Shown here one piece after another: positions 1 to 29,599 of a stretch of DNA of 33,223 nucleotides; positions within the stretch are counted from its first letter, which is position 1, and every line of letters begins with the position of its first letter. The stretch is from Gracilaria domingensis (lineage: Eukaryota; Rhodophyta; Florideophyceae; Gracilariales; Gracilariaceae). The notes beneath the pieces are model-generated. The model did not search any database and was not told the origin of the DNA. It worked only from the letters and a program-made list of their open reading frames with translations. A program made the position numbers and the translations under genes. The DNA is taken from contig VCMS01000395.1 in assembly GCA_022539475.1 (NCBI GenBank), positions 74,306-107,528 of the forward strand. Direction: 5' to 3'.

Positions 1-383
1 TCCATAGAGAGAAGGAAAAATCGCGCAGTCTCTGGTCCTCATCCCGTCCTTCTTGTCAAGAAGCTTCGTTACAAGATATCGCTGTTCCACAGGTTTGTTA
101 TTCACAACACTCTTTCGCAGCTGTTGCAGTGTCAAGTTCTGCAGGTTCTTGGAGTTAGTGGCCTCCTCAAACATCTTCCTTGCCTCCGGAATATCCTTAT
201 AGTTCTCGGCGCAGAACTCTATTAACCCTCTAAACCCACGTCCCGTGGCCGATCAGGGCCTCCATCGCTGTTTGCCAAAGCATCGCGAAGAACCAAGAAA
301 AGTCTGACATATGCATGGAACGCCGGAGGCGGAGCACTCATGTCGATAGGATGTATCTCCTCTCCAACATCGGTGGAATCCAT
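1..383 (-). pseudogene. Broken 5' part of an unidentified helical protein gene, running off the left edge
   Basis: Read on the minus strand, an ATG at 383 opens 53 codons (starting MDSTDVGEEIHPIDMSA) and stops at 222-224. A different frame is then open without a stop from 225 to base 1 (75 codons, beginning LIEFCAENYKDIPEARKMFE). The second part is charged, helical and lysine-rich, and looks coding. The third frame also has a plausible stretch (MEALIGHGT) just before the switch, so one or two single-base changes near 225-330 seem to have broken one reading frame. I recognise no family. The start codon lies about 15 bases downstream of the left arm of the inverted repeat whose right arm precedes the gene at 1783, so both genes seem to have had the same promoter module. 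It could also be several spliced exons, but I see no convincing intron at the switch. Confidence 0.4.
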
Positions 384-628
384 CGCTTCAGCGCAAACAA
401 CGGAGGCGAGCCTTTAAATGGCGACTTACGCTGGGCACCCCCGCTTTCGGCAGCTCCTCCCAGCGCACTGCCAGTCTCGTCCGTGTCCGTGTCCGCTCGG
501 AGCGATAGCGTCGCGTGTCGGCCACGTCGCGATTCGGAGCTATTGCAACGGTCCCGTATTGTGCTAAAAGTCGCGGATCAAGTGGGTGTGAAGCGCTAGT
601 TTTCTCTAGTTTGATATATGTGTACGGC

Positions 629-1427
629 GTGTGCAGCGAAATCACTGCCGGAAGTGCCGGGAGGAGTGTTTTGGGAGGTCTCCGGAAGGCGCCGGAATGT
701 GACCAGAACGTGCCCGCGGGCGGGGGGGTCCGGTCGTGTTAGGGTAGGTACCCTAACACGACCGGACCCCCCCGCCCGCGGGCATAAAATCGCACATTTT
801 TCAAAAAATCGTCCAAAATGTGCCCGCGGGCGGGGGGTCCAGTCGTGTTAGGGTACCTACCCTAACACGACCGACCCCCCCGCCCGCGGGCACGTTTTCG
901 ACGATTTTTTGGCACCCTCCGGAGACCTCCCAAAACACTCCTCCCGGCACTTCTTGTACCCACTGCGTCACCTCAGTGAACCATCCCGGAAATTAGGGAG
1001 TGTCTGGAGGGTGGAGAAGACGGGATGGTCACCTCAGTGCACCATCCCGGAAATTAGGGAGTGTCTGGAGGGTTAAGATGACGGGATGGTGCACTAAGGT
1101 GACGCAGTGGGTACAGGAAGTGCCGGGAGGAGTGTTTTGGGAGGTCTCCGGAGGGTGCCAGAATGTGGCCAGAACGTGCCCGCGGGCGGGGGGGGTCGGT
1201 CGTGTTAGGGTAGGTACCCTAACACGACCGACCCCCCCCGCCCGCGGGCACGTTTTGGGCGATTTTTTGAAAAATGTGCGATTTTATGCCCGCGGGCGGG
1301 GGGGTCCGGTCGTGTTAGGGTACCTACCCTAACACGACCGACCCCCCCCGCCCGCGGGCATTCTGGCACATTCCGGTGCCTTCCCGGGACCTCCCAAAAC
1401 ACGCCGCCGCGCAGTGATTTCGCTACA
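629..1427. repeat. Nested GC-rich palindrome block (four palindromes in two inverted cassettes)
   Basis: The ends match in inverse orientation: GCGAAATCACTGC near 635-647 and its complement at 1411-1423. Inside are two cassettes. In the first, the 36-base arms 651-686 and 918-953 are perfectly inverse and enclose palindromes at 711-784 (36-base perfect arms, two-base centre) and 821-892. In the second, the arm 1117-1152 and a degenerate partner near 1370-1405 enclose palindromes at 1173-1254 (40-base perfect arms) and 1287-1360. Every palindrome runs from GTGCCCGCGGG through a G-run to GTGTTAGGGTA and back. The spacers are AT-rich (ATTTTTTGAAAAATGTGCGA or its complement). Short ORFs crossing the block merely follow the palindrome and are not genes. 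Confidence 0.9.
967..1088. repeat. Two tandem 61-bp direct repeats at the centre of the palindrome block
   Basis: Two near-identical 61-base units (967-1027 and 1028-1088) share GTCACCTCAGTG, ACCATCCCGGAAATTAGGGA and GTGTCTGGAGGG. The flanks TACCCACTGCGTCACCT (about 957-973) and AGGTGACGCAGTGGGTA (about 1097-1113) are inverse to each other, so the tandem pair forms the centre between the two palindrome cassettes. Confidence 0.8.
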
Positions 1428-1615: not shown

Positions 1616-1782
1616 GAGCGGCCACGGACAGGACACGGACGAGACTGGCAGTGCGCTGGGAGGAGCTGCCGAAAGCGGGGGTGCCCAGCGTAAGTCGCCT
1701 TTTAAAGGCTCGCCTCCGTTGTTGTATCGTCCAGAGCGAGCGTATTGTTGATATACACCTTTCACTGCAATAGCTGTTCAAC
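1616..1782 (+). promoter_or_regulatory. Probable promoter of the 1783-5697 ORF chain
   Basis: A GC-rich stretch with AAAGCGGGGG and GTGCCCAGCGTAAG is followed by CTTTTAAAGG (TATA-like, about 1699-1708), a start-site region and an ATG at 1783. The same module in inverse orientation precedes the leftward gene at 383. That conservation next to two unrelated genes supports a promoter role. No transcription start can be read from the sequence. Confidence 0.45.
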
Positions 1783-2478
1783 ATGAAGCCAACTCGTGTT
1801 CGAAAGCGTACGCAAAGCGTGACTCCTCGCACTCGGCGGAGCACTCGATTATTGCAAGGTGGAATGCGGGTTTCTCTGCAGATGGATATTGAGGATGAAG
1901 GAAAGGTGATAGTCGGGGAAGCGTTGTTGCATGGAATTGGAAGTGTTCTACGCCGCGAGTTGCACGGGAAGCAATTGGACCCAGGTCTTGTGGTGGTTCA
2001 TAATATTCTCATCAGTCGAAGCGGTCAGACGTTCTACCCTTACCGGGCGGAGGGCCTGGATCTTCCACAATATATCCAGGATCTCCGGACGGCCGCTCCT
2101 TGGGATGAGAAAATGATGGAACCGGTGGCAGCCAGCATTCCGGCGTCGAAGCGAGGAACGGTGAGCGCTATGAGTGAGGTGATGACGCCGACAAGCCGCA
2201 CGGAGCCAATTCGAAGTTCATCAACACCGAGAGGTAGCGCATCAGTAGCACCTCCGCGGGCAGGTCCGTCGTCTGTTACGAAGCGGTCTATGGAGACGAG
2301 AGCATCCCCAGCTACGAAGCGGACAGGTCAAACAAAGTCTACCTCCGCTACGAAGCCCACTGCGTCGAAAAGGGCTTCTCCTGCGATGAATCAGACCGTC
2401 GACACAAGGGGACTTCTGCGTCGAAACAGACGGTTCAGCAGGGGACGGCTGTGCAAGAGGAGGAAGATGAGATCATGA
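1783..2478 (+). CDS. Basic low-complexity N-terminal segment of the ParB/dioxygenase chain
   Basis: 231 codons from an ATG just downstream of the promoter-like arm. Residues 1-27 are strongly basic (MKPTRVRKRTQSVTPRTRRS). Residues 28-115 look folded, and residues 116-215 form a Thr/Ser/Lys/Ala repeat-like linker with motifs such as SATKPTASKR. The last 15 or so codons (RGLLRRNRRFSRGRL) lose that character, while the frame one base back continues it (KGTSASKQTVQQ) and leads straight into the next ORF. I therefore read this as the N-terminal part of a longer protein broken by a one-base change near 2405-2415. DNA or chromatin binding through the basic tail is an inference. I recognise no named family for residues 28-115. 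Confidence 0.6.
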   Translation: MKPTRVRKRTQSVTPRTRRSTRLLQGGMRVSLQMDIEDEGKVIVGEALLHGIGSVLRRELHGKQLDPGLVVVHNILISRSGQTFYPYRAEGLDLPQYIQDLRTAAPWDEKMMEPVAASIPASKRGTVSAMSEVMTPTSRTEPIRSSSTPRGSASVAPPRAGPSSVTKRSMETRASPATKRTGQTKSTSATKPTASKRASPAMNQTVDTRGLLRRNRRFSRGRLCKRRKMRS

Positions 2479-3806
2479 AAGGTCCCCTTCCAGACGCGGA
2501 TGCGCAATCCGCGCAAGGAGCTGGTCCATCTGTACCCCAAACTGCACCAGAAACTGCGGAGCAGCAGGACGATGACGTTGTGCTTCTGTCCGCAAGAATG
2601 GCACGTTCAAGTGTTTCTGGCGAGCGGTCTGGAACACAAGGGACACCTACTCGGAGCAAGACGTACAGACGAATTCGTCAGAAGGTACCAAAGGTGAACC
2701 TCAATCAGTACCGGATGGTTGTTGTTACTGTTGACATCACTCTGGTGGACACTCCGCCCAATTTACTCCGTGGAGTAAGTAAACGCCACGTTGAAGCCCT
2801 TGTGAAGAGTATGGAGGAGCGGGGGATATTGCAGTCGATGGGTTCTCCAGTGGTGGCCTTACAAGATGCTACTACGGGAGAGAGGGATACTGACAAGGGA
2901 CGCCTAACGAAGAAGTGCTTCATTGTAGATGGTTTGCATCGTCTGAAAGCTATACAATATTTGGCAGCGACTGGTGCACCGAAGTGGAAGCGATTAGCCA
3001 AGTTTTGGCGTTGCAATCTGCTGATACGAAGAGATGGGAGGCCCATTGGGATGAAGGAATTGTTATGTGTTGCTTCGTACCTCAATGAGTCGACGAGTAC
3101 CATGCGAAGGATGATGTTTGCAGACAAGATACACTCTATAGTTAGTGTGGTCGCCATTCTAATTGAAGATGTTGAGGGGGTGACGCCGGCAGACGTGGAT
3201 CCTGCAGAAGTGACAGAAGTGTTGAAGGAGAGCCAACTGATTGGGACTGTGCAAGAGCGTCAGTACCTGAGATATGCCAATGTCGCCCTGCAACTCATGT
3301 CTCGTGAGGGAATGCTGGCCCATTTCGAGGATATATGTGAGACTGTGAGTGACATAGGTCTCACACATCTGTCCCATACTCCGCTATATGTTTTGGATGC
3401 CGAGGAGTTTTCCTTCATTCTTGATTGTCTTCAGATGTTTCTATTGAAGGGCAAGTCGACGAAGACAAAGCAATGGAAAAGCTTTGAGGAGGTTCGAGGT
3501 TTCTTTTATGATAGAGCAGTGTCTCTGTTCCGCGCGGCTAGAGCAGTGAGGAATGAACTGAACGAGGAAGAGTCCATGGAAGTGTTCCTGAAACGCGAAG
3601 TCAGTCTTTCTGCTCCATCGAATGAAGATGACGTTGAAGACCCAGACAACAACGCAGCTGTGTATCAGTTCCTTTTGGGACAAGTTGTGAACTTCAACAC
3701 TTTGCCGCGTGTTCGGAGCAGGACGAACTCAATTAGAACTGCCACGACTTCCGTTCAGAATCGATTGCGGACGATGCTCAAGGTAATTCCGCCCCCGCAC
3801 CAGTGA
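2451..3806 (+). CDS. ParB/sulfiredoxin-fold domain protein segment
   Basis: 451 codons. After an acidic Gln-rich lead (residues 1-60), residues 85-175 resemble a ParB/Srx N-terminal domain. VEALVKSMEERGILQ followed by PVVAL is the usual helix and strand, and IVDGLHRLKAIQYLA at 158-172 carries the DGxHR core (residues 160-164) that binds nucleotide or DNA in ParB-like proteins. Residues 180-420 are a long helical region without a family I know. The ORF opens at a GTG; its first ATG is residue 9. The reading frame is already open from about 2236 and overlaps the previous ORF. ParB-like domains act in plasmid and chromosome partition (CTP-dependent clamps) and as nucleases. Which activity applies here cannot be told. 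Confidence 0.7.
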   Translation: MQEEEDEIMKGPLPDADAQSAQGAGPSVPQTAPETAEQQDDDVVLLSARMARSSVSGERSGTQGTPTRSKTYRRIRQKVPKVNLNQYRMVVVTVDITLVDTPPNLLRGVSKRHVEALVKSMEERGILQSMGSPVVALQDATTGERDTDKGRLTKKCFIVDGLHRLKAIQYLAATGAPKWKRLAKFWRCNLLIRRDGRPIGMKELLCVASYLNESTSTMRRMMFADKIHSIVSVVAILIEDVEGVTPADVDPAEVTEVLKESQLIGTVQERQYLRYANVALQLMSREGMLAHFEDICETVSDIGLTHLSHTPLYVLDAEEFSFILDCLQMFLLKGKSTKTKQWKSFEEVRGFFYDRAVSLFRAARAVRNELNEEESMEVFLKREVSLSAPSNEDDVEDPDNNAAVYQFLLGQVVNFNTLPRVRSRTNSIRTATTSVQNRLRTMLKVIPPPHQ

Positions 3807-5065
3807 AGCAGTCCGTGACGAAGAGGAGGACTCCCGCTGCTGCTGCTGCAACATCTGCCAGTGAAGAAGGGGAGCCGCGAAGAAGTGCACGAGAACGGGC
3901 GCAGGTGAGTTATAGGGAAATTGAACACGGCCGAAATCGAGGTGCCATAGAAGTTCTGGATAGCTCTGAAGAAGAACAGCGGGCTCCGCCGAGGAAGAAA
4001 CGGAGAAAGACTTTCACACAACAGATGAGATCTACTCTGAACAGCATGACACCGGATGACCTGATGTCTCAACTAAATGAACATGTGCTGAGAGGAAGGT
4101 CGATGAAGGTTCAGTTCGTGGCATTGGGAGAGGGAGCGAATGCAGAGAACGCAGGCAGTTCTGCATTTGTGGATGACGATGAGCTTCTTTCTGTGACAGT
4201 TCCACGGGTTGTCACCGTCGAGAAAGATGCTGCGCCAGACGATCAGCAAGAGACAGGTGGGGGGTCATTTGATGACGAGTTACCTACAGCTCTTCCGGAA
4301 TCTGAGGAGCACGGACTTGTTCGAGGTGACCCATATGATGGCCCACTGAACCCATCATGGTGCGGGTATGCCAGGCTGAGACCGCAGGAATGGCAAGGGA
4401 AGAACGTAATTGAGCACAAGGACCCCTGGCTCAGAGTCATTCACTTGCCGAAGGGACATAGGTCGGAGCTGCTAAGTGTCTCGAATCTCAGAGATGTACA
4501 CCATCTTGTCTTTTGGCACGCTGCAAGGGCTGAACATCGCCTACGGGCGGAGACATTTGGTATGCAGTATCCTCGTACTCGACCGACAGGTATGGATGAT
4601 GAAGAGGTGCTGTGGGTTGCTGCGAAGGAGCATGACGAATTTGGGCAAATGTTCTTCGCCCGAATGCAAGCTGAGCTAAGGCAGAATGGATATTGCGTGC
4701 TTGATGGCTTTGCGACGGATAATGGTGTCCCTAAATGGGAGGAGTTGGAAGAAGTTCGGGAGTTCGGAGATGTGTCGGGGAAGTTGGTGGACTTCTTCGA
4801 GAATGAGTATGGAGCGATGCCGGATATACGGAAAGGAGAGGAACAGAAGTCGTTTGTTCAAATAATCAACGATGATGAAGGATGGAAGGACGGTAGCGAT
4901 GGACCATTTGAGGGGAGAGTGATGTCGACACGTTGGGGTACGGTGGAGAAGCCGGAGGATAATGAGGAGCTCAGGTGGGTTGTAAGGTCGCGTGCTTTAC
5001 TTGATGTTCGAATGGGTACAATTGCTGCGGCTTTGGGACTATGGGAAATGAAAGGGAAGCTGTGA
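3803..5065 (+). CDS. Nuclear-type linker plus N-terminal half of a 2OG/Fe(II) dioxygenase-like domain
   Basis: 420 codons. The ORF has no ATG until about residue 75, yet residues 1-74 look coding: Ala-rich, then acidic (EVLDSSEEEQ), then a nuclear-localisation-like PPRKKRRKTF at 62-71. This suggests it was read on from the previous ORF. The frame is open from about 3735, so the two ORFs overlap. Residues 180-420 are globular and lead into the oxygenase fold: a helical region around QMFFARMQAELRQNGYCVLD, a Trp-rich strand region, and RWVVRSRALLDVRMGTIAAA at about 387-406, which resembles the segment before the double-stranded beta-helix in this enzyme class. The fold is completed only in the next ORF. 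A nuclear location is inferred. Confidence 0.6.
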   Translation: MKQSVTKRRTPAAAAATSASEEGEPRRSARERAQVSYREIEHGRNRGAIEVLDSSEEEQRAPPRKKRRKTFTQQMRSTLNSMTPDDLMSQLNEHVLRGRSMKVQFVALGEGANAENAGSSAFVDDDELLSVTVPRVVTVEKDAAPDDQQETGGGSFDDELPTALPESEEHGLVRGDPYDGPLNPSWCGYARLRPQEWQGKNVIEHKDPWLRVIHLPKGHRSELLSVSNLRDVHHLVFWHAARAEHRLRAETFGMQYPRTRPTGMDDEEVLWVAAKEHDEFGQMFFARMQAELRQNGYCVLDGFATDNGVPKWEELEEVREFGDVSGKLVDFFENEYGAMPDIRKGEEQKSFVQIINDDEGWKDGSDGPFEGRVMSTRWGTVEKPEDNEELRWVVRSRALLDVRMGTIAAALGLWEMKGKL

Positions 5066-5697
5066 AGATGTACACTCCGAAAACTGGTGGTCGATTTCTG
5101 GGGACGACGAGAAAGTGCAAGCGCCAGACGCTGCACACCGACTTCAGTGGTCTGGTTACGAAGGAAACAATGAATACTGGCAACCCCGGATACTTTGTAA
5201 TGGCCTCTGGGAAAGAGGGCTTTCCTCTCTGGGTGAGCGCTGGAAGCCATCAACTGGTGGGGATGAACAACCAACAGTTGCGAGTGATGTCGGAGGTGTA
5301 TCCAGCGAAGAAGATAATCATCCCACCGTACTCTGTATTCGTGGGCCGTGGTGATGTGACACATGCTGGAGCAAGTGGGAAGGACAAGGTGGATAGGCCC
5401 GAGTCTATGGATTTGCTGGTTAGATACCACATGTACATGGTACCAGAGGGCTACGCACTACCTGATGCTGTTCATCGGGTGCGGGATTTCCGACCCACGT
5501 TTGTCAATGGTGACGAGGAGGAGGAGGCGGAGGATGAACTGTTGTCCGATAAGGAGGGTGGGGCGGTTGACATGGACGAAGACAAAGTGGTCGTGGAGAT
5601 TGGTGTGGAAGCGTACGCCGGTAGAACCGAAGTGCTCGAGAGTAGTAGTGATGACGATTTGCCAATAATGAGGCTGCGAGCGCCTCGAAGTGGATGA
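5041..5697 (+). CDS. Catalytic half of a 2-oxoglutarate/Fe(II) dioxygenase-like domain, acidic tail
   Basis: 218 codons from an ATG; the frame is open a little upstream. It shows the signature order of a double-stranded beta-helix dioxygenase: HTD at residues 32-34 (the HxD iron ligands), a VSAGSH strand at 65-70, the distal iron ligand in GRGDVTHAGA (His108), then RYHMYMVP with Arg128 placed to bind the 2-oxoglutarate carboxylate. Residues 158-185 are strongly acidic. Phytanoyl-CoA-hydroxylase-like and TET/JBP-like enzymes share this fold, and the substrate here is unknown. The domain's N-terminal half is in the previous ORF, so the two were one protein. The frame step lies near 5035-5060, where GGGAAATGAAAGGGAAG is shared. 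No canonical slippery heptamer was seen by eye. Confidence 0.65.
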   Translation: MGNEREAVKMYTPKTGGRFLGTTRKCKRQTLHTDFSGLVTKETMNTGNPGYFVMASGKEGFPLWVSAGSHQLVGMNNQQLRVMSEVYPAKKIIIPPYSVFVGRGDVTHAGASGKDKVDRPESMDLLVRYHMYMVPEGYALPDAVHRVRDFRPTFVNGDEEEEAEDELLSDKEGGAVDMDEDKVVVEIGVEAYAGRTEVLESSSDDDLPIMRLRAPRSG

Positions 5698-6030
5698 GAA
5701 TGAGATGTTAGTAAATTATGTGTGTCTTGCGAGTATTAAGAGTAGTATACTATTATAAGGCTATACATATGAACATAGAAAAGGTGCGGCAGGCTGGTAA
5801 TTGAACAAATGTCAAACGTCTTTGGTCCAGTTGCGTCTAATTGCAACATGCCAAATGCTCGGTATCGTTAACATCATTGGTGGCACCAGTCAATTCGCAA
5901 TTGAACATGTAGCGTCCTAACATTTCTGAAACTGCACTTAAGGTTGCTTTTAAGAGAAGTGGAACTGAGAAGTCTATACAGTTCCTGTCTATGCGGTACT
6001 TGTGGCAGTATGGTGACTGTATCAGGAAAA
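5698..6030. other. Spacer without recognised gene
   Basis: AT-rich sequence between the dioxygenase-like ORF and the HAD pair. It should hold the 3' end of the first and the promoter of the second. I see no repeat or palindrome that would pair with the block at 0.6-1.4 kb, so a right-hand end for a mobile element is not evident here. Confidence 0.5.
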
Positions 6031-6869
6031 ATGGCAGAGGAACAGAGAGACTTGGCGGAAATTTCACCAAATACCTTGTCTAAGTTCATATATGCCAATG
6101 GTTACGGTATATTAAGTTCCGTTGATGGAACGTTGAGAAGAGAAGGAGAGTCAATTCCAGAAGAAGTTGTGAAGTGTATGAAGTTCATTGACGAACGTGT
6201 TGGTTTCGGACTTGTCACAGGGGGTGATGTGGGCGACGTGGAGGGGAAAATGGAAGGACTCGGAGACTATAAGTTTGGTGTCTCGGCGAATCATGGAGCT
6301 TTCCTGCGTTTCTCTGACGAGAGGGAAATTAAGGGTGCATTCAATGATCACACCCTTGACCACACTGTTGACGGACTACTGTTCCTGGCAAGGGATTTGA
6401 ATAGGAGGCATGGTATTGTGAATGATGATGACAAGGGGTTCGTGGAGACCAGAAGTGATAGTGGCCTTCCCAATTTCGTGTACAACAAACTGTGGCAGTG
6501 GAAAGAAGAAGTGGATTCTGCTATTGGGGACCTGTTGCAGAAGATGGATGCGTTTGTTATCTATCCCGGCGATAAAAGTTGCGAAATTGTGGACAAGCGA
6601 TACACAAAAGGAAGCGGAGGAGAAAATCTTGTGGATAATGAACCGAGATTTATTGATACGGATGACGTCGTGACGTTCGGAAGTGCTTTGAGCGACGGGC
6701 CTTTGCATGAGGTAGGCGTGTACGGCGTTCACGTCAAAGAAGATTGTATCCCGGTGGAGTACACAACCTGTTCGAAAGCGTGGAGGATGTACATTCGACA
6801 ATTATGTTGGTGGCTCTGTTGTACGGCTACGAGGAAAAGCAGCACGATAAAAACCACCATGACTCATAA
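6031..6869 (+). pseudogene. HAD-superfamily phosphatase-like paralog with lost nucleophile and a late frameshift
   Basis: This is a paralog of the gene at 6922-7794. I chose the ATG at 6031 because it aligns exactly with the equivalent Met of that paralog, 11 residues before the shared (I/V)(S/T)PxxL motif; the frame is open further up. The HAD motif I position reads SSVDGTL where the paralog has NDVDGTL, so the nucleophilic Asp is Ser. Motif TGRD is TGGD. The late acidic loop reads FGSALSDGPLHE. Near 6765-6775 the frame changes: the frame one base back continues as LFESVEDVHSTIMLVALLYG, matching the paralog's VDGVEDVHETIRRVAELYG, and ends at 6869. Changed catalytic residues plus a frameshift point to a dead or regulatory copy. 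The substrate family may be trehalose-phosphatase-like, with low certainty. Confidence 0.65.
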
Positions 6870-6921
6870 AAGGGTATTGAGATATACACGACACTTTTGT
6901 TACTGAGATCTCATATCATAG

Positions 6922-7794
6922 CTAAGTATTAAAGGCATCGTAGCACTTGAAACAAATTCCAAGAGCATTTCTTAACCTTTGACACTTGCATTTTGTGTAC
7001 CCGTACAGTTCTGCCACCCTTCTGATGGTCTCATGCACGTCCTCCACGCCATCAACAAGATATGTTACCGCTGCTGGATGGTCTTCTCCCTTCACATGAA
7101 CTGCCAGGGTTGCCATTTCATATAGAGGGCCATCATTGGAAGCATTCCCGAAAGCAACGATTAAATGTGTGTCGAACTGGGGGTCGTTTTCAACCAAGGC
7201 TAGCGCCCCACTATTTTTCGTGAAACGAATGTCCCCTATGTCACAGTTTTCATCTTGAGGGTACGCAACCAGGTTCGGAAAGGATGTCAACACTTTTGAA
7301 ATACCGGAGTTAACTTCTGTTTTCCACTTCGAGAGTCCATTGTACGTGAAGTTAGGGAGTCCACTGTCTTTTCTAGTGCTCACCACTGCTTGTTGACGCT
7401 CTTCGTGAAGTCCGTGCGATTCATTTAAGGAGAGTGCAAGTCTCTCAAGTTCGGCTGCACATCTTTCGTAACCTTCCCTGTCAAGGTCCTGATCAATTTC
7501 GGTACCATTGGATAATCTCACCCGTGCGCCTTGGTTTCCAGAGATGCCAAAAGTGTAGCCACCCAGGTGCTCCATGAAACTCTCGGCATCCTCTATATCT
7601 CGCCCAGTAGCAATTCCGAAACCAACGCGTGCGTTGATGTACTTCATGCATTTGACTGTTTCGGCAGGAATGTTCTCCCCAGCTCTTTTCAGAGTACCGT
7701 CAACATCATTAATCACGGCGTAGCCATTTTCGAATATTTCGTTAGCCAGCTGCTGAGGAGTTACTTCTTGGGCTCTAACTTCCGAGTTATACAT
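6922..7794 (-). CDS. HAD-superfamily phosphatase-like protein (trehalose-phosphatase-like type)
   Basis: 290 codons from the ATG at 7794, chosen because it aligns with the paralog; the ORF could extend to 7872. Motif I is VINDVDGTL, with both Asp of DxD present. GFGIATGRD follows about 28 residues later (HAD-IIB-like spacing). There is a cap-like central region, and then FGNASNDGPLYEM, which sits where motif IV (GDxxxD) of trehalose-6-phosphate phosphatases lies, with Asn in place of the first Asp. About 290 residues is a normal size for this class. The gene lies tail-to-tail with its degenerate paralog, only about 50 bases apart, so an inverted duplication is likely. The reaction would be phosphate-ester hydrolysis using Mg2+ and an aspartyl intermediate. 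The substrate is not shown by the sequence. Confidence 0.7.
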   Translation of the reverse strand: MYNSEVRAQEVTPQQLANEIFENGYAVINDVDGTLKRAGENIPAETVKCMKYINARVGFGIATGRDIEDAESFMEHLGGYTFGISGNQGARVRLSNGTEIDQDLDREGYERCAAELERLALSLNESHGLHEERQQAVVSTRKDSGLPNFTYNGLSKWKTEVNSGISKVLTSFPNLVAYPQDENCDIGDIRFTKNSGALALVENDPQFDTHLIVAFGNASNDGPLYEMATLAVHVKGEDHPAAVTYLVDGVEDVHETIRRVAELYGYTKCKCQRLRNALGICFKCYDAFNT

Positions 7795-8416
7795 GTTTTG
7801 AAAGCTTTCGAAAGGGTTCGTTTTGCAAATGGGTGTGGGTATACGAATGAGAAGGATGTGATTGGTGTTCACAAGGTGTTTCGTAGTATAAAAAGAGTCT
7901 AAGAACGACCATATACGGGTATTGTAGTACTGTTTTAAAACGTTACTAGGAGGAGAAGTTTTTGCATCGATTTGAAGTAAAGAAAGGATGATTTAGTCAT
8001 AAATTATATGTACGGGTTCAACTGGGTAAAGAAAACTGTAAATATCTTTAACATGAGCTTAGAAATCAAGAAGAGTAAAACAACCTCCATTATGGGTTGA
8101 AACCCATAAAAGGTTTACCTTACTTTATACGGGTGCCCCAAGTAATGCGAACGCTTAGTTCTTCAGAAATATCACAATTTTTGTACTTGTTTCGTTACTA
8201 GTATCGTGCACTTTAATGATATGGAATGACCATTTTCTATCTAGCAAAATCTTAGCGAGGTATTAGTGATAACGGATGTAGGATTTAAAGGGGCATATTT
8301 GAACCACAGAAGGACGAACAATATAAGTAATGTAATAGGAACAGGTCATTTCGATAAAGTATATGTTTAACTATCTCTAAAAGGTTTACAACACCGAAAA
8401 GTCATGTGTTCTAACC
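7795..8416. other. AT-rich intergenic region
   Basis: No ORF or repeat that I can support. Close upstream of the leftward HAD gene the minus strand reads CTTTTTATAC (about 7887-7896), a possible TATA region for that gene. A short hairpin, TATGGGTTGAAACCCATA, lies at about 8091-8108. The rest is AT-rich and featureless to me. Confidence 0.5.
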
Positions 8417-9319
8417 TCAAACCTGGGGGAATGGGGAGGGGGATAACTTTTCCTTAACAACGTTGACGTAGTTTGTATGAAAAGGAGCGGGGTCACCGCC
8501 TACAATGTTTCTTTCTTGGCGGGAAAAGTCGTAGAAGTACGCGTTCCTAAACTGAAAGTCGGAGAAAGAAGTAGGGAAGCCAACGAGAGTTTTCCCATAT
8601 GCAAGAAGTCGCCCAACGGTCTCTTCCAGGTTGAAAGTAGTACCTGTCTTAAGCGAAACTATCTTCAACAGCTCTTTCATTATTGTGAGCACAACTGTAC
8701 TGCACTCCGTAGCGACTACGTCCATAGGAATGAAACCTCTTGAGGCCCCGACGATGTTGAACGCTGATAGCCACACGAGCTTCTCATAATAGCTTACGAG
8801 AAATGTGTCTTCGTCGACAACCCCGCAAGTGAGACCCATAGACCTAAACCTGTCTGCAACGTTGGAGGCCCACTTTCCTGTTGCGACAGTGAGACCATCC
8901 GGACTTTGAGGAGTGACACCATCCTGCGGAGCTGCGTTTCTTGAGGGGACACCAACGTATAGGACAACTTTTGAACATTTGTCCACACCGAGCTTCGAAA
9001 GCAATGGTATGATGTCTCCATTCTGGAAGAAAACGAGATTCTCTCTGAGCGAATAAGGGCAAGCCTGAATTACGGTCTCCAGGGTGTTCTTTCTTCCACA
9101 AACTAGTATCGGTACATCAGAAAGATGAGAGGTAGCAGCCATGCTGCAGAATTCGTGTGCGGAAATGACCGTATCTTCTTCGTTCGCCAGCATGGTACCT
9201 ATACGCCCCCTTCCAACAATAACGGCCCGAGCCCTTCGGGCGGGAGATGAGGCCTGAGGGACGTCAGAGTATCTGGGACTCGGAGGCGGACTGGGAGGCA
9301 TGTCGGACTGGGAGTTCAT
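8417..9319 (-). CDS. Ketopantoate-reductase-like Rossmann-fold oxidoreductase
   Basis: 300 codons from the ATG at 9319 (MNSQSDMPPSPPPSP). The frame is open to 9520, but that upstream part looks like leader sequence. After a Pro/Ser-rich N-terminus comes AVIVGRGRIGTML, a dinucleotide-binding GxGxxG loop (G36-x-G38-xx-G41). Then follow VPILVCGRKNTLETVI, a NLVFFQNGD strand typical of ketopantoate-reductase-like proteins, DGLTVATGKWA, and a helical C-terminal domain with YEKLVWLSAFNIVGASRG, where the Lys and Asn positions of the substrate site would fall. I recall conserved proteins with these blocks in plants and algae, without a settled reaction. The gene is intact, unlike most of its neighbours, and is probably a functional host gene. 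NADPH use and substrate are inferred. Confidence 0.75.
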   Translation of the reverse strand: MNSQSDMPPSPPPSPRYSDVPQASSPARRARAVIVGRGRIGTMLANEEDTVISAHEFCSMAATSHLSDVPILVCGRKNTLETVIQACPYSLRENLVFFQNGDIIPLLSKLGVDKCSKVVLYVGVPSRNAAPQDGVTPQSPDGLTVATGKWASNVADRFRSMGLTCGVVDEDTFLVSYYEKLVWLSAFNIVGASRGFIPMDVVATECSTVVLTIMKELLKIVSLKTGTTFNLEETVGRLLAYGKTLVGFPTSFSDFQFRNAYFYDFSRQERNIVGGDPAPFHTNYVNVVKEKLSPSPFPQV

Positions 9320-9716
9320 TGCAAGTGTTCGAATGTTTTTGTGTGACGATAGAAATGAAAGATGGGGCGGAGAACTGCTGGGGTAAAGAGTGATACTTAA
9401 GTACAAACGGTTGGGAAGCGCAGAACGGGAACATGGTTCACTTTGTGAAAGTGAGCGAAATGTATGATATGTGATTGTACTGAATGAATGATAGGGCTTG
9501 TATGAGACGACAAGCCACAAAGTGTGATGATGTTTTATGAAAAGTAGGTGGAAGAGTAGAAAGTGTACAATGAATGAAACTGATTTCGAACCTGAGTTGT
9601 AAAGTAGTTGTAAAGTACGAGTTACGGGGAGCTTGAATACAGGATGAAAGGAGCCATTTTGGCTTCATAAATGACGTGAACGGGTTCTATAGCTTCACTT
9701 GGATTGCCATAATTAA
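9320..9716. other. Upstream region of the reductase gene; no epimerase N-terminus
   Basis: It should contain the promoter and leader of the leftward gene at 9319. I looked here for the missing first half of ribulose-phosphate 3-epimerase (start APSLLSADF, metal-site HxDVMDG) and found neither in any plus frame. Confidence 0.5.
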
Positions 9717-10440: not shown

Positions 10441-10670
10441 GTGGGTGGGGACTATGTGAAGAGGGGGCAGAGAGATGGCGCTTAAATAGTGGAAGGTGCG
10501 GAGGTGTACAGTAGATGTTTTGGCGGGAAATGGGATGAGGGAAACAGGGACAATCATGGTGCTGGATATAGCCCGCGTGGTTGGACAGTGGGGGTGGACA
10601 GCACAGTTTAGCTCGATTGCACTGTATCGCAGCGGAAACTTCGATCCAACTACTACTTCTTCTTCTGAAG

Positions 10671-11600
10671 ATGTCGAACGGATACGTGAAGGATGAGGAG
10701 CTGTTGGCGCTGTTGGAGGGGAAGGAGGTACCGCAGACGCCGTCACCAAAGCGGGAAGAGGACGTGATTACGGCGGCTGGTCGGATGTCGCAGAAGAAGG
10801 AAGTGGCTGATGAAGGAAAGAAGTGTGAGGCGAGGAGAGGGGATGGTGATGAGGTGGAGAAGGGGGTAGAATTGGAGGTGGAGGGGGTCGCAATGGAGAG
10901 AAGGGGTGCGGTGCATCTGAGTCAGTTAGAGGTTGGAGACCAGATAGAGAGTGGGGGCGGAGAGGGTGACAGGGAGATGCGGTTTGTGGGGGAGATGAAG
11001 GCGAGGGTGGGGATGTTGGGGTTGGTGATGAAGGAGCAACTGGACGATGGAATTGTGGAGATTGTAACGGAAATGGGCGGTGTGGTGCTGAGTGGGGGTG
11101 GTAGTGGTGTTTCGGTTGAGGCGATTTCGAGCCTGCGGAATTCGTTGTCGGTATTGGGAGTGGAGATGAGAAATCATGTGTATGGGATAGTGGAGTGTGC
11201 GGGAAGGGAGGTTGGAGAGTTGCGGGAGGAGAATAGGGTTCTGAACGAGAGGTTTGACGTGCTGGAGAAGGAGGTGAAGGAGCTGGGCAAGAGGCAAAGA
11301 TTGGTGGAAGAGGAGACGCTGAAAGGAGGTGTGGAGGGAAAGACGGAGAAGGGAAGTGTGGGAAGGGTGGCGGTGCAGAAGGGGTCTCCTGTGACACCGG
11401 AGACAAAGGGTGGTGGGGTTGGGGATGGGAAGAGCCGTCTGAAGAAGAGGCGTAAGGAGATGAAGAAGGTGGTGGAGGAGGTGCCGCGGGAGGGAGTGGG
11501 AGCTCCGGTGGTGACTGGGTTTAGGAGTGCGGCGGAGGTAGCGCGGACTGCGAAGGGGATTCTGAGGGGACAGGAGGAGAGAAGGATGGGAGGGATTTGA
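10671..11600 (+). CDS. Unidentified basic/acidic coiled-coil protein (Gag-like by architecture)
   Basis: 309 codons from the ATG at 10671, which follows a CT-rich leader (TACTACTTCTTCTTCTGAAG); the frame extends up to 10581. There is no family I recognise. Charged low-complexity regions flank a central helical part, with a coiled coil at about 185-230 (REVGELREENRVLNERFDVL and onward). The C-terminus is Lys-rich (RLKKRRKEMKKVV), then a short helix. Codon use is extremely G-rich, with many GGG and GGA, so the opposite strand also shows long but meaningless ORFs. A GSPVTP motif after the coiled coil resembles GTPVTP in the broken gene at 24.5-25.4 kb. A structural (Gag-like) protein of a retroelement, or a nuclear protein, are both possible. 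Confidence 0.5.
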   Translation: MSNGYVKDEELLALLEGKEVPQTPSPKREEDVITAAGRMSQKKEVADEGKKCEARRGDGDEVEKGVELEVEGVAMERRGAVHLSQLEVGDQIESGGGEGDREMRFVGEMKARVGMLGLVMKEQLDDGIVEIVTEMGGVVLSGGGSGVSVEAISSLRNSLSVLGVEMRNHVYGIVECAGREVGELREENRVLNERFDVLEKEVKELGKRQRLVEEETLKGGVEGKTEKGSVGRVAVQKGSPVTPETKGGGVGDGKSRLKKRRKEMKKVVEEVPREGVGAPVVTGFRSAAEVARTAKGILRGQEERRMGGI

Positions 11601-12023: not shown

Positions 12024-12656
12024 TTTCCAAAGCGAACAGACTATATTCCACTTTGCAGAACACAGACGTTCTTTATGGACGTATGCCGTATCTTGGATGT
12101 CAAGAATTTGTTTACAACAACCTATCATCCCCAGTGTAATGGGCAGGTAGAACGATTTAATCGTACAATGCTTAACGCATTACGATCCTATGTTGCGGAT
12201 CACCCAAAGGATTGGGACTTGTACAACGATGCTATTACGTACGCGTATAACACCCAAGTGCATCGGGTAACGAAGCTTTCGCCGTTTGAACTCGTTCTTT
12301 CGAGGATACCGCCACCGGTAGCAATCGAATCACAACCGACGCTAGTCTCTTTCCAGTCACCACGGATTTACAAGTACACCTGGAAAATTTGGTTAACCAA
12401 GATGGTACCGGTAGCCCGGAAGGCCATATACAAGGCACAGCTTACGTACAAGCGCAATTTTGATCGCCGACTTCGCGGTACACCAAAGGTGGTAGAGCCC
12501 AACAGCTTTGTGTTCCTTCCGAAGGAGTATTACAATCCTGACAAGGAAAAGAGACATAAGCTCTCCCCCATCGCTGATGGACCATATCGCGTCATTTCCG
12601 TCAATCCGGATACCGTCGTACTAGACATTGACGGACGTCATGAACGAATCGCGTGA
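12024..12656 (+). pseudogene. Ty3/gypsy (chromovirus) integrase, C-terminal part of the core and GPY/F domain
   Basis: The frame is open from 12024. Integrase similarity begins about 12066 with FFMDVCRILDVKNLFTTTYH, then PQCNGQVERFNRTM, which contains the last catalytic Glu of the DDE core. Next come the usual C-terminal helices (AITYAYNTQVH, SPFELVLSR) and a GPY/F-type region, LSPIADGPYRV, with VVLDIDGRHERIA at the end. Everything upstream (protease, reverse transcriptase, RNase H, the first two catalytic Asp) is absent, so the element is 5'-truncated. At 12656 a stop occurs, but the frame one base forward continues as ESRDRVVPAPMPPT, the normal sequel, indicating a further frame break. Confidence 0.85.
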
Positions 12657-14637: not shown

Positions 14638-16452
14638 TCACTGCCATTCTGTCCAAGGACCGGCACCTCCATTGTTGGACGGCCCCGCTTGGGGAGGCTG
14701 ACTGGCGAAAGCCTGCGTGCCCAATGCCAACAGCTGGCCGAGGTCGTACATATCCGGTGGAACCGGCACCCCAAGTCCGAAAAGTTGGTTGCGCATCGCT
14801 ATCACGCGAGGGTCAATATTCCCCTGCGAAGGGCCCACGCCCCAACCGATAGGAGCAACTGGCGCAGCCTCCCCTCCGGCAACCGGAACTACTGCGGAAG
14901 CCGCCGACGGAACTCCCGTTGCCGGGTCTTCCACAGTATAGTCCACCATTAGATCGTCCTCCTCCGCTACTGAGTAATAGCTGTCAGAAAACATGAACCC
15001 AATAGAGTGATCGCTCGGAACCACTCGAGGAAGTCCGCGTAGGACGAGAACCCGCTCCTTCGGGACGGTAACTCCCTCCCAGGGATCGTAATACACGAAG
15101 TCACCGGCACCCGGATGTCTTCGCCCTGGCGAACGGTCGTAGTGCGAACGAGTGCCCCTGGGGACGTTTTCCGCCGGAACGGTACTCCATTCAATGGAAT
15201 CGATGAGATCGATAAGGCTGATGACCTCGCTGACGTTGTCGTCCGAACCGAGCGCGGTGTATAAGTCCAGTGATCTAATCACATTCCGTAGCCTCGGAGG
15301 CAAATACCAAACACGGTTCTGGTCGTATGCTTCCCATAGCATAAACGCGGCAACGCGAGCGGCCCATTCGGTGATGAAGAGCACCCAATACTCCGAGTCC
15401 GGATTCGCAATCATGCGTGACCCCACATAGGAGATGCACGGAGGCAATTCCGGGAAACACCCGCGTGGTACCTCATGGTGAGCCCACCACGATGGGAGTG
15501 GAGCGAATCGACCCGCTAGTGCGTCCGGACGCAAACGATCAACCTCCATGTTCTGGTGCGGAATCAGATACCCGAATCGGGATCGCCATTTGCGTTCGTT
15601 TCGCAGTCGGTCGAAGAAGCTTCCCTCTCCCGAAGGACGATGTAGATATCGGAACTCCGCCCGCAGGATCGGCCTGTTGAACAGGAGAATGCCCGCCGGC
15701 ATCGCCTCCGCGAAGTCTTCCGCCGCTTGGAAGTCCGCGAGGTTCGCGCCACACTTGACCTCTCCGTAAGTTCGCAACCGAGAAAAGTCGAACCCGTATG
15801 ACTCGGGAATCCTCTCGGGGAACGAGGCTCGGTCCTTCCGAATGTATGCCAATCGCGCCATAGCCGTGCGCGCTTCATCTAGCGCTTCGTATCCACGGCC
15901 GCGCCGTTTCAGTGACAACACTTGAAGTGCGACCGCCACGCGGTTTCTCCAAACCGAGGAATCCACCAAATCTCGGTGTAGGCCGCCAGGCAGCATACCT
16001 TTCTCGGTATATGAATCCATCAACGCACTGTTGCGAACCGCTGTCGGGTGAAACCAGGGCGCTCTGGAATAGGCCCAGCTTCTTCCGGTAGTCGGATCTT
16101 GAACAAGGAGCGATTCACGCGCTATCGAGCCAGCTGAAGTCGCCAGCAAGGGCAACGCCTGAGCGGAATTCCACGCCGCGACGTCAACCGGGTTCGGTGT
16201 AGTCGTGTGATGTTGACTCTGAGGCAGAGGGGCGGAGGCGAAACCGCCGAGATACCCTGTCGCAGGAGTTGCGGGACCCGAAACGTTCGGAGCCCCGGCT
16301 TGGGAATGCTGCTCGTCGCCCTGGTGAGGGTTCATCGAATCGTCGATCGCAGAGGAAACTTCAAGTACTGAATCGTCTGAGTGCAGAGAAGTTGAGTGCG
16401 CTTGCACGTGTGTCTCGTTGTGACGAGGAACCGGAATCTCGGATATGTCCAT
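14638..16452 (-). CDS. Intact 604-residue protein of unknown function, antisense to the retroelement
   Basis: A single open frame of 604 codons from the ATG at 16452. I recognise no domain. Residues 1-110 are low-complexity and acidic/His/Pro-containing. Residues 120-430 look globular, with many Trp, Arg and Tyr residues (ILLFNRPILRAEFRYLHRP; WVLFITEWAARVAAFMLWEA, a hydrophobic helix). Residues 480-604 are again low-complexity, Gly/Pro/Ala-rich, ending WTEWQ. It has no transmembrane or nuclease signature. A TATATAAG-like motif lies only 12-22 bases before the ATG, too close for a normal start site. It is convergent with the broken pol fragment and is complete while pol is decayed, so it is either a younger insertion or under selection. 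An antisense accessory protein of a retrotransposon, or a capsid-like protein, are both speculative. Confidence 0.6.
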   Translation of the reverse strand: MDISEIPVPRHNETHVQAHSTSLHSDDSVLEVSSAIDDSMNPHQGDEQHSQAGAPNVSGPATPATGYLGGFASAPLPQSQHHTTTPNPVDVAAWNSAQALPLLATSAGSIARESLLVQDPTTGRSWAYSRAPWFHPTAVRNSALMDSYTEKGMLPGGLHRDLVDSSVWRNRVAVALQVLSLKRRGRGYEALDEARTAMARLAYIRKDRASFPERIPESYGFDFSRLRTYGEVKCGANLADFQAAEDFAEAMPAGILLFNRPILRAEFRYLHRPSGEGSFFDRLRNERKWRSRFGYLIPHQNMEVDRLRPDALAGRFAPLPSWWAHHEVPRGCFPELPPCISYVGSRMIANPDSEYWVLFITEWAARVAAFMLWEAYDQNRVWYLPPRLRNVIRSLDLYTALGSDDNVSEVISLIDLIDSIEWSTVPAENVPRGTRSHYDRSPGRRHPGAGDFVYYDPWEGVTVPKERVLVLRGLPRVVPSDHSIGFMFSDSYYSVAEEDDLMVDYTVEDPATGVPSAASAVVPVAGGEAAPVAPIGWGVGPSQGNIDPRVIAMRNQLFGLGVPVPPDMYDLGQLLALGTQAFASQPPQAGPSNNGGAGPWTEWQ

Positions 16453-16869
16453 GGTGGACCACGCTTATATACTCGCTCGCTGATGAGTCTCCGCTTGCAA
16501 ACCGGATGTTTCCTGCGCTAAGGAGGGGGATATGTAGAGCAAAACGTGCTCGCCCGGTATACGGGGAAAGATTTCATATACCCCTGGTAAGGATGATTCC
16601 GGGTACTCGGAAGGTATGAGTATTGGCCCACGGATGGGATACTTTTTGGCAGTATTGAGGTATGGTACCCTGAGCGGTCGGCCATGACGTGGCGCAGATG
16701 AGTATTGGTCGCGTGTACGCGTGTATAGGAATGGGTGTGTTCACACATGTCTTGTTATGATTGTCGGATATTTTACTGGTCGCTGCCGCGGGTTGTCACG
16801 TGCACCACGTGTATGGACCTGCTTAGGTGTGCATTAGAATATTTAATTTAGTTTAACTAATTTATCGGT
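16453..16869. other. Upstream region of the 604-residue ORF; nothing else recognised
   Basis: Holds the TATATAAG-like motif (minus strand, about 16464-16473) and E-box-like CACGTG motifs near 16798-16810. No gene is supported. The boundary of any long terminal repeat cannot be placed because no second copy lies in the window. Confidence 0.35.
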
Positions 16870-25398: not shown

Positions 25399-26083
25399 AT
25401 GTTATACTAGGTAATCGTAGTAGTGATGACTATTCTAGAATATTTGCAGAAAGTTAGCGAACGTAAATATGGTGGCACAGGTGGACATCACATAAGGTCC
25501 TCACACGACGACAAATAATACGTCTGATACTTTCATTTCGTGAACATACACTAGCAATCGTGGCGTACGTCAACTGTTCTGCATAGACGTCTGTCTCTTG
25601 CAGATGCTAGTTTTTGGCGAGGGTCGTCCAGAAATTGGCAAGGGTCGTCCAGTAAATTTTTTGAAAAAATATCGAGATCAATTATTTCAAAATTTGCAGA
25701 TAATTGCTTGGGTCGTCCAGAATCGCTGTGCAGTAAATACTGGTGGAGTTCCAATCGTGCTAGTTCTTTAGTCGAGGGCTACCTGAACTGTATTTCGCGA
25801 AGTCTAGGTTCAGTTTCCATTAAGGTGCACATTACACGATACCTTCTGCGGAATGATACCCTGCAACGCATGGAATACTAGTGCTAGTACAGATGATGCC
25901 CATTATGAAATCATACCGTTTTATTCGTATCTATTCTTCTATCGACCGCTTTTGCTAACCACTACTTCGCTATATTACATGTACCATATCCCCATGATGG
26001 AGCGGGTGTAGGCGCAATCTGCGGCAGATGCGGCAGACTGCACGTCCACCATCGGCTGTATCGGTAGAACAAATACGCACTCC
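25399..26083. other. Intergenic region with three GGTCGTCCAG copies
   Basis: GGGTCGTCCAG occurs three times at about 25620-25631, 25643-25653 and 25710-25720. Between them, TTTTTTGAAAAAA is a short AT palindrome. No coding sequence is supported. Confidence 0.5.
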
Positions 26084-27041: not shown

Positions 27042-27407
27042 GAGCGGAGTAGAACGCGAGGATGGCACGGATCACGACGGTAACAAAAGGTCGGACGTCG
27101 GACGGGCGGGGGCGGCGGCGGAGGGAAGAGATTTATTTTTCTGTGCGAGATTGGACAAGTGTACAGCGTACAACGTTGGGAAACCACAGGTTTATAACCA
27201 GTGGTAGATAATACGAGAAGTACACCCTTGTGTTGAGGTCGACGTGTACCTACGTTCCTTTTTGAACGAAAGCACGTGATTAAAACTCAAAATATATCCT
27301 CCGTTCTGAGCAAGACGTCGATATTGACTGTCGCTCGACCTCCTTCTCCCTTCGGACGCCCTTCCCTTGCAGTCTTTGTCGTCGTTTCTCGTTCATTTCT
27401 TCTTCCC

Positions 27408-29045
27408 ATGGTCTACTACTGTACACATAAGAAGCATGGGTGCCCCTTCGTTACTCGCCGAGGAGTCTTATCCCTTCAACAGCATGTCAACCATTGCCCG
27501 TTTCGTCTGAAAGCAGCGCTGGAAGACGACAATAGCCGGCCCATTCGGAGAAGCAAGCGTCTCAAGCTTTCCGCACCCGCGCCGGCATCTTCCGAAACGG
27601 TCACTGCCCCTTGTCGCCTTCCCGAGCCTCCAGTGTCCGAGGACATCGTCGACCCCACTCCGTGCGCCCCTCCCATTCCGGACACTTCGCATTGTGTTTC
27701 TCCTTCCCCGGGTCCCGCGTCATTAGAGCGAGAACACGGAAGCAGTTCCCGCCCAGTGCCTTCTGAGGAGGCCCTAGGTGATTTGCATATGGATTATCTC
27801 ACGGTTTGTCTGGCTTCAGTAGCTTCCAACCTTGGTCATCGTGAGGCGGACGAGCTAATTGGGCTACTTCGGGACCCGCGATTCTCGCAAAAGCGATTCA
27901 ACGAGACCATAACAAGTTCCAAGCGCTGTACAGAACTGAAGAACGCCATTTTCGAACGATACGCCTCAAAGGACGGTTTCAATCGCAGAACTGTCTCGCC
28001 AGAAGGATGTAAGTTCAGCGCCACCCTCTACACGAGAGACCCCGTTCAGACACTTGTGAAACAGCTCCAGTTGGCTAACAACGAAAACACATTCTTCCAC
28101 CCTATACCTCAGACCCACTCCACGAAAATATCTCACCCCATGTCCGGCTCTCTCGCAAGAAACGCCACCTCAAAACTTAAGGAAATGGTCATGGGCTCTT
28201 TGGATAGTAGAATAGTGTGGTACTCCCAAGAAATAAGTTACAGTGAATCTTTCGTAGGTATTCTGCATGTATACACCGATAAGTCTTCAACAACTCTAAA
28301 GCAAACATCGGTTACCCCTGTACTCTTCACCTCATATTTCTCAACTTCTCCGACGAGCTACGCCGTAAGCGCATCCGTGATGACCTCACAGTAGTGGCAT
28401 ACTTTCTTACAACACTGGTACAGGTTTTCGCATCTGAAGCAGACGCAATGCCATTCGTTTCTAGCAAGTCTCTACGCGATTCCAGGATGGACATCCTTCA
28501 AGAATCTCTTCGTCAAGTCCTGTAGCAAATTATACATCTAATGCAGAAAGGTTTTCAGTTCATCGGCGAAGACGCAGTATATCGAGTGTGCTATCCTCTG
28601 CAAGTCTTTGTGCGGATATTCTGAGGCTAAGGACATTCTGTCTACTCTTCATAGGAGCCAAACGGAAAGCCCTTGTCATAGATGCAAACTCCCTTCCTCA
28701 TCTTTAGGCGGTAATGTTCTTACGTCATTCACTGGACTCTCCCAAAACCACACTAAAAGCGTCAGAAAGACATACTCAGTTATTCTCGAATATGCAAAGA
28801 AAGGCGAAGGAGAAAGAAACTTACGTCGTACAAGGGAGACGAGATCCAAGTCGGATATTTTCATGCGTTCCAATTCCATATCTCTCATTCTCTCGTCCAT
28901 CAAAACCGCCTTGACCGTAAGATTCATCCAGGGGTTATTTCTATGCAGTCTGTTCGAAACAAGGAGAGCTCGCTTCGAACAGTTACGCAACTTGCATCTC
29001 GGCATATTGAAACTGATTAATATTCCAGAAATCGAGAGACTGTAG
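27408..29045 (+). pseudogene. N-terminal half of a Plavaka/KDZ-like transposase, broken
   Basis: From the ATG at 27408 the first 328 codons are open. A Cys2-His-Cys-type finger comes first (C5, C12, H26, C30; YYCTHKKHGCPF...QQHVNHCPF), then a Pro-rich linker, then RDPVQTLVKQLQLANN and VGILHVYTDKSSTTL with LFTSYFS, the order seen before the catalytic core of Plavaka-type transposases. At about 28345 the sense moves to another frame (DELRRKRIRDDLTVVAYFLT), with a TAG near 28523, then AVYRVCYPLQVFVRIF, and then to the frame ending at 29045: EAKDILSTLHRSQTESPCHR with CKLPSS (the CxxC-type knuckle) and LHLGILKLI. Similarity stops there. The C-terminal half is not downstream but lies at 17.57-18.96 kb. 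Confidence 0.6.
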
Positions 29046-29055
29046 TCAGAGACCC

Positions 29056-29098
29056 TAAGCACTGCAATAGAATCATCATGTTTCTATTGCAGTGCTTA
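29056..29098. repeat. 17-bp perfect stem hairpin at the end of the transposase half
   Basis: TAAGCACTGCAATAGAA (29056-29072) and TTCTATTGCAGTGCTTA (29082-29098) are exact complements separated by nine bases. It lies 11 bases after the last open frame of the N-terminal transposase half, at the point where transposase similarity ends. Confidence 0.9.
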
Positions 29099-29140
29099 GA
29101 GCGGATGATCCGCGTCACGTTCATTTCGAACGATACGTAC

Positions 29141-29599
29141 TCAAATCCAGAACTTTACAAACGCAAATCTATCTTCCATGCAATGCAACTTTTTTGTCAG
29201 AAGTTTGCCTATAGATTTGTCCACGACGAAGAAAGGCAGGTTACTGAATGGAACCTTCACCAAGGCAGATCTCCTTTGAATGATGGAGGCCAAAGCATAC
29301 AAAGACATTGACATATTTTTCCTTTCATGATGGAATTCTTTGAAATCTGATGGGGAGCGCAGGACACGGCCCCAATCAGAAAAATTTTCTCTCAGTACTC
29401 GGGCGTTGCTTGGAATAATTATAGGTGCATTAGTGGGCCATGATGTAATGAAAGCTCTATTTCGTCTCTTCGGTGGCAGATTGAAGCCTCCAAATGCTGC
29501 TCGACAACGTAGTCGGCAGCAATTCATAGCTCTGGAAGTGGAACTCTGAAGTTTTATAACGGCTCTTAACAGAAGAAGAACTAACACCTTTGGCAGCAT
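29141..29599 (-). CDS. Doubtful ORF with a hydrophobic N-terminus
   Basis: 152 codons from an ATG at 29599. The start MLPKVLVLLLLRAVIKLQSS could act as a signal peptide. The rest is basic and not recognised (RAFITSWPTNAPIIIPSNAR, then FKEFHHERKNMSMSLYALAS). There is no repeat or domain, and plus-strand frames across the same DNA look about as plausible. It could be a spliced exon, a small secreted protein, or chance. Confidence 0.2.
   Translation of the reverse strand: MLPKVLVLLLLRAVIKLQSSTSRAMNCCRLRCRAAFGGFNLPPKRRNRAFITSWPTNAPIIIPSNARVLRENFSDWGRVLRSPSDFKEFHHERKNMSMSLYALASIIQRRSALVKVPFSNLPFFVVDKSIGKLLTKKLHCMEDRFAFVKFWI

Follow-up and report, generated by a model that had tools for sequence, protein, structure and literature searches.

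A ParB-like and 2-oxoglutarate oxygenase-like fusion gene in a giant Plavaka-type transposon of the red alga Gracilaria domingensis

Four overlapping open reading frames (ORFs) form a chain between positions 1783 and 5697 of the stretch analyzed here (the window; 33,223 nucleotides of contig VCMS01000395.1 of the red alga Gracilaria domingensis). In the reading that we favor, with some reserve, they represent one decayed copy of a gene from a giant Plavaka-type transposon, coding for a single long accessory protein in which a ParB-like domain would serve as a tether and an oxygenase would act on a methylated DNA base. The protein's probable role is to help the element change the chemical marks carried by its DNA. 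It comprises an N-terminal part, a domain of predicted ParB/Srx fold, a basic linker that by eye resembles a nuclear localization signal, and a predicted C-terminal domain of 2-oxoglutarate (2OG)/Fe(II) oxygenase type.

A preliminary description of the window, made from the sequence alone, had reported the chain of four ORFs, and we could confirm it: the ORFs lie at 1783-2478, 2451-3806, 3803-5065, and 5041-5697, with start positions modulo 3 of 1, 0, 2, and 1. When the segment was aligned with an intact copy from the same genome (L009), the two were 98.7% identical across 3,915 aligned columns and differed by exactly three gaps, near 2413, 3792, and 5047, each of which is one base lost from the window. 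These three losses displace each frame by one base and explain why ORF 3 has no early ATG, as had been remarked earlier. Introns were ruled out as the origin of the frame steps, as natural copies read through and the window is one base short at each step. The segment has an open frame of up to 522 residues, whereas in 200 mononucleotide shuffles the longest frame averaged 110 residues and never passed 218; this, together with conservation at 23-30% identity in eight other sequences (see below), indicates more than chance.

With ORF 2 as the query, the G. domingensis genome (77.9 Mb, 680 contigs) yielded 716 candidates and, among these, 94 scored matches, none of them less than 91% identical. 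A stop-free frame of 1,294-1,308 residues was present in seven of the 94, a count that leaves aside C424 (2,760 residues, read across a run of Ns) and C169 (1,336 residues, with an internal stop). Six of the seven (L009-L014) were retrieved. Two of these, L009 and L010, are open for 1,308 residues from stop to stop, have the usual start methionine (Met) and C-terminus, and encode the full 1,305-residue protein. L011 and L012 (1,299 residues each) end a few residues early, L013 (1,294 residues) lacks the usual start, and L014 (1,295 residues) ends in another frame.

Homologues were also found in public databases. The initial database search returned two G. domingensis proteins (P0001 and P0002), one of them 92% identical over 78% of the query, and two distant proteins (P0003 and P0004); when the oxygenase region of P0004 was used as a query, six more distant proteins were recovered. 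All eight distant homologues, of 1,050-1,456 residues, carry both domains in one chain and are the sequences 23-30% identical to L009. Ten residues are invariant in all nine members compared, namely D383, G384, H386, R387, R416, D418, H1119, D1121, H1195, and R1215, and this conservation across both domains is the strongest evidence suggesting that the fusion is real and selected. Together with the intact natural copies, the one-chain homologues bear out the earlier suggestion of one protein of about 1,300 residues: a single frame spans all domains, and homologues in the form of four separate genes, the outcome that would have spoken against it, did not appear. Other searches gave little. A profile search (A1) returned only the two G. 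domingensis proteins among 7,988 candidates scored, and Protein Data Bank sequences searched with P0004 and with profile A3 yielded nothing relevant. Searches with one or two short peptide patterns gave 68 pattern stretches in viral contigs and two in prokaryote genomes, with no confirmed relative in either set. The public gene models P0001 and P0002 are misnamed "cell-wall-anchored protein SasA" and "mediator subunit 15-like," and both lack the stretch that holds the oxygenase core.

The predicted structure of the ParB part matches the ParB/Srx fold, and a DGxHR-type motif is present in all nine members. The ParB-like assignment of the preliminary description is thus supported by the fold of the model and by the motif; a curated Pfam ParB match was not found in the nine members. 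Window ORF 2 alone gave GmrSD_N at E 0.23, and there was a match to a ParB-like family of PHROG at E 0.0085. Judging from the model, the domain folds like ParB, and we do not assign it to the Pfam ParB family.

For the C-terminal part, the HxD...H metal triad and a distal Arg are found in all nine members, and these motifs, along with fold matches to a low-confidence model, support a 2OG/Fe(II) oxygenase fold, as had been proposed. The closest among the fold matches listed for this low-confidence model were small-molecule 2OG enzymes and a prolyl hydroxylase. In a viral fold library the model had one match under E 0.001, followed by weak ones that included phage 2OG proteins; the best match was an unnamed 574-residue viral protein (UPI0000161E52, E 3.1e-6). 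The outcome that neither domain would show its fold was not observed, with the reservation that the oxygenase model is of low confidence. The label "TET/JBP-like" did not hold in its narrow sense, as no Tet_JBP match was found in the nine members; TET/JBP proteins were also absent among the fold matches listed for the low-confidence model, a result that leaves room for a TET/JBP fold.

The gene is carried by a DNA transposon of Plavaka type, about 22 kb long; measured from one end to the other, two copies came to about 22.4 kb (C165) and 22.8 kb (C23). Residence in a mobile element, which had been raised earlier as an idea, is shown by copy number, sharp ends, and the transposase. The right end is sharp, with ...AACACAGACG followed by a different flank in 4/4 and 10/10 copies of two sets (one with small changes), and the right-terminal 36-mer occurs at 566 genomic places with up to two mismatches. 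Of 14 flanks at the left end, CGTCTGTCTCTTGCAG, 12 show a sharp boundary, each flank being different, and the other two lack the first bases. By eye, the ends form short imperfect inverted repeats reading CGTCTGT...ACAGACG. Plavaka termini are given as TGT..ACA or CATCA..TGATG in PMC12730594; in the Gracilaria element TGT..ACA is set back four bases from the ends. One copy of the element is inserted within the methyltransferase region of another. Matches to Plavaka (PF18759) were over the cut-off in the transposase ORFs of L027 (1.4e-14) and L055 (2.3e-24). We also considered a LINE-like (long interspersed nuclear element), 5′-truncated element, as there were 164 left-marker against 566 right-end matches; this was ruled out because the marker (TACATG...) is internal, the true left end lies elsewhere, and the element encodes a DNA transposase. 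The unequal counts could stem from internal deletions and from gaps in the assembly.

Read from left to right, the element begins with a Plavaka transposase gene, followed by a coiled-coil-like gene and the genes for a SET protein and a DNA N-methyltransferase, these last three pointing leftward. The palindrome array comes next, and beyond it lie the gene for the ParB-oxygenase, the pair of HAD genes, one unassigned gene, and a charged ORF. The methyltransferase is of the N6-adenine/N4-cytosine (N6A/N4C) type (PF01555 in L012, E 4.4e-15, with TDPPFN). The left part recurs in a related family (family B) on C22, whose methyltransferase, with TDPPYG, and SET gene are 30% and 42% identical, respectively, to those of the element studied here (family A). 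In family B (L055 with L054, C22:685430-697429), the methyltransferase has 830 residues, a SET gene is present, and the Plavaka transposase lies in an open frame of 989 residues. In this 78 Mb red-algal genome, 150 N6_N4_Mtase matches were scored (328 candidates).

The region between the methyltransferase and the ParB-oxygenase is symmetric. The two genes diverge from start codons at 383 (leftward) and 1783 (rightward), each behind one of two mirrored 93-nt arms, with an array of long palindromes between them. Among 16 further loci searched, both arms were present at length in 12, one arm in L014, L017, and L024, and one arm plus a 43-nt piece in L016. A palindrome lies 472-492 bp upstream of the gene start in 18/18 loci that include this start (17 distinct copies, with up to three substitutions; L025 is the window copy), and up to five more are present; L016 has one palindrome at 128. 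Genome-wide, the palindrome 30-mer has 1,358 sites at up to two mismatches, whereas the reversed pattern has none.

These features suggest how the element may work. The ParB domain would bind element DNA, plausibly the palindromes beside the gene, and would tether the oxygenase there; the palindromes are candidate sites by analogy with parS for ParB. The oxygenase would oxidize a methylated base (5-methylcytosine or an N-methyl mark), thereby lifting host silencing or editing the element's own methyl mark. The divergent genes, mirrored arms, and palindromes point to a writer (the N6A/N4C methyltransferase) and an oxidizer (the ParB-oxygenase) that may be made together, under common regulation, from the symmetric control region, and the SET protein would be a third chromatin enzyme of the element. 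We more tentatively propose, as a possibility that we rate below even, a self-addressing epigenetic module, in which the ParB-fused oxygenase loads on the parS-like palindromes, spreads, and erases or remodels base methylation while the divergent methyltransferase behind its mirrored arm writes a different mark, so that the element tags itself as active chromatin.

Several observations weigh against our preferred reading, that of an accessory protein acting on element DNA. There was no Pfam ParB match and no 2OG family or Tet_JBP match in any of the nine members at E 1, and NCBIfam gave no match for the three members tried with it. The oxygenase model has a mean pLDDT (predicted local distance difference test) of 45, and its Foldseek matches all fell short of E 0.001, with other cupin-fold proteins further down the list. 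The palindromes could serve the transposase or act as promoter hairpins; as ParB sites they are putative. With a target-site duplication of 2-3 bp taken as a criterion of Plavaka membership, four flank pairs gave a 2-bp duplication (AT) in C60 and none in C23 or C165; C53 also had none but is nested. The gene order is a composite of C51, C22, L012, L025, L027, and the window; in C51 a 1,304-base run of Ns separates the transposase from the gene that follows, and L027, the copy that supplied the family A transposase ORF, has an internal deletion. As for the gene itself, dN/dS (nonsynonymous to synonymous substitution ratio) among intact copies was 0.61-0.91 (nine pairs computed, those with L014 being raised by its shifted C-terminus); by this measure, constraint on the gene after insertion is weak. 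Finally, the break near 3792 is common to 20 of the 94 scored matches, the window's own included, all ending at query residue 451, the window's stop. Fourteen of these 20, again with the window's copy, match ORF 2 at 100% along its entire 451 residues, as do C178 and C222 along residues 1-449, although these two do not end at residue 451. A recent transposon lineage may thus have spread carrying a gene split near 3792, or the shared break may reflect a systematic sequencing error.

The latter bears on whether the window copy is decayed at all. Its frame breaks might be errors of sequencing or assembly in an intact copy, which we think unlikely, though well worth keeping in view: all three breaks are single-base losses, a usual type of long-read error, and the record contains runs of Ns, one directly left of the window. 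A random error is hard to square with 20 copies sharing one break while the other 74 end elsewhere, a pattern with which a systematic error would be compatible. That the ORFs are separate neighboring host genes outside any transposon is hardly credible. NCBI does name two copies as unrelated host proteins, but the 566 near-identical right ends, the 94 scored gene copies, the sharp ends in new flanks, the Plavaka transposase, and the insertion of one copy in another's methyltransferase region all speak for a mobile element.

The substrate of the oxygenase is a further point of divergence. The same transposon protein might act on a protein, e.g., histone tails or the transposase, with the ParB part as a chromatin anchor only. 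The small-molecule 2OG enzymes and prolyl hydroxylase among the closest folds listed, as well as the element's SET gene, are consistent with this, but the mirrored arms that pair the gene with that of a DNA methyltransferase favor DNA, as do the fungal Plavaka elements with TET/JBP genes (PMC12730594), and we consider a protein substrate rather unlikely. A hypermodification pathway seems less probable still: here the oxygenase would make a hydroxymethyl base on which the ParB/Srx-like domain would act as a phosphotransferase, perhaps with the HAD phosphatases. The fold in question is also that of free serine kinase and sulfiredoxin.

The features of the window are collected in Table 1. The rest of the methyltransferase gene would lie left of the window, at the run of Ns in the record; in L012 the frame is open for 776 residues to the end of the retrieved sequence. 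The unassigned gene at 8417 had 131 genomic matches scored (528 candidates). The retroelement integrase fragment in the right flank (12069-12656) has the same junction in C279 with two mismatches, and by eye the left flank of C137 looks like the part of the integrase next to it. From 25588 the window holds a second copy of the transposon family, with its own palindrome array (30750, 30859, and 30968); within its transposase, the piece 27405-28391 alone had no Pfam match. Remnants related to family B occupy 17664-20702 (a transposase piece at 17664-19091 and a coiled-coil gene piece at 19324-20702), with 70-72% DNA identity to contig C22; the sequence between these remnants and 25587 carries no assignment. 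A 608-residue open frame at 14638-16464 (minus strand) had no family match over the cut-off. No ParA was seen among the ORFs scanned, although no search was aimed at it.

Table 1. Positions and strands of features in the window.
Feature	Position	Strand	Remarks
N-terminal part of N6_N4 DNA methyltransferase gene	1..383	-	Met at 383; frame broken here
Left 93-nt arm	396..488		12 bp upstream of methyltransferase Met; mirror of 1631-1723 (99%)
Array of long palindromes, core GTCGTGTTAGGGTA-NN-TACCCTAACACGAC	711..1361		Cores at 733, 842, 1199, 1309
Right 93-nt arm	1631..1723		59 bp upstream of ParB-oxygenase Met
ParB-like/2OG-oxygenase gene	1783..5697	+	Decayed copy; intact elsewhere as one 1,305-residue ORF
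ParB/Srx-fold core with DGLHR, residues about 313-438	2718..3096	+	Fold matches and motif
2OG/Fe(II) oxygenase-like region, residues about 972-1229	4694..5466	+	HxD codons 5134-5142, distal His at 5362
HAD-type phosphatase-like gene of the element	5944..6906	+	Hydrolase_3, E 6.7e-5
Second HAD-IIB-like gene	6922..7872	-	E 1.7e-12; 47% identical to first HAD gene over 236 residues
Gene without assigned family	8417..9520	-	GRGRIG motif resembles Rossmann loop (by eye)
Charged, possibly coiled-coil ORF without assigned family	10572..11600	+	
Right terminus ...AACACAGACG	12051..12068	+	Followed by retroelement integrase fragment (rve_3, E 3.8e-4, below cut-off)
Left terminus CGTCTGTCTCTTGCAG of second copy, same element family	25588..25607	+	
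Broken transposase of second copy	27237..29557	+	Aligns to L027

Parts of this picture are already in print: giant red-algal EnSpm elements, fungal TET/JBP genes on Plavaka, SET genes on other transposons, and ParB with methyltransferase on algal transposons. In fungi, TET-bearing Plavaka, KDZ, hAT, EnSpm, and other transposons occur, and the passages available from Kojima (2025; PMC12730594) hold that their TET/JBP enzymes remove silencing marks. The Gracilaria element resembles the fungal TET-bearing Plavaka in that one and the same DNA transposon carries a Plavaka-type transposase together with a (here predicted) Fe(II)/2OG oxygenase, with anti-silencing as the proposed role. It differs in that the fungal enzyme is TET/JBP, with no ParB fusion mentioned in those passages, whereas ours is ParB-fused and has no Tet_JBP match, and it also carries DNA methyltransferase and SET genes and has a red alga as its host; "red alga," "Rhodophyta," and "Gracilaria" have no occurrences in PMC12730594. 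SET genes are also carried by HarbingerS and MuDR elements (cited in PMC12730594), which belong to other superfamilies and for which the excerpts mention no oxygenase or N-methyltransferase. In the brown alga Ectocarpus, the giant 21.5 kb DNA transposon Sola1-1_Ec32 encodes an accessory protein (1,104 aa) with ParB-like and N4C/N6A methyltransferase domains; according to the authors' suggestion, the transposon that encodes such a protein may itself be bound and modified by it (PMC12477816). There the element is a Sola, and a single protein joins ParB to the methyltransferase; in the Gracilaria Plavaka, the fusion partner of ParB is the oxygenase, and the methyltransferase has a separate, divergent gene. 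Giant multi-gene EnSpm elements were reported from the red alga Chondrus (Kojima 2013, as told in PMC6431247), and the CACTA-like elements of red algae, with their several ORFs and lengths from 16-20 kb upward, are similar in build to ours. With bacterial ParB/Noc and parS our protein shares the fold of its ParB-like domain, the palindromes just upstream of the gene being putative sites. The bacterial ParB motif is GERR, while the Gracilaria protein has DGxHR. Our literature search found no published account of a ParB-oxygenase fusion; it did not include the 2025 paper of Petroll on Bostrychia, the likeliest place for one. The giant elements of that red alga are said to be Plavaka.

The arms race over silencing can be watched directly in transposons equipped with chromatin enzymes. 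In this seaweed, a single family of elements joins a DNA methyltransferase, a SET protein, and an oxygenase-like domain fused to a predicted bacterial-type ParB fold, with candidate target palindromes adjoining. The finding accounts for two misnamed predicted proteins of G. domingensis and, if true, would provide a testable proposal for a mobile element that aims base modification at itself.
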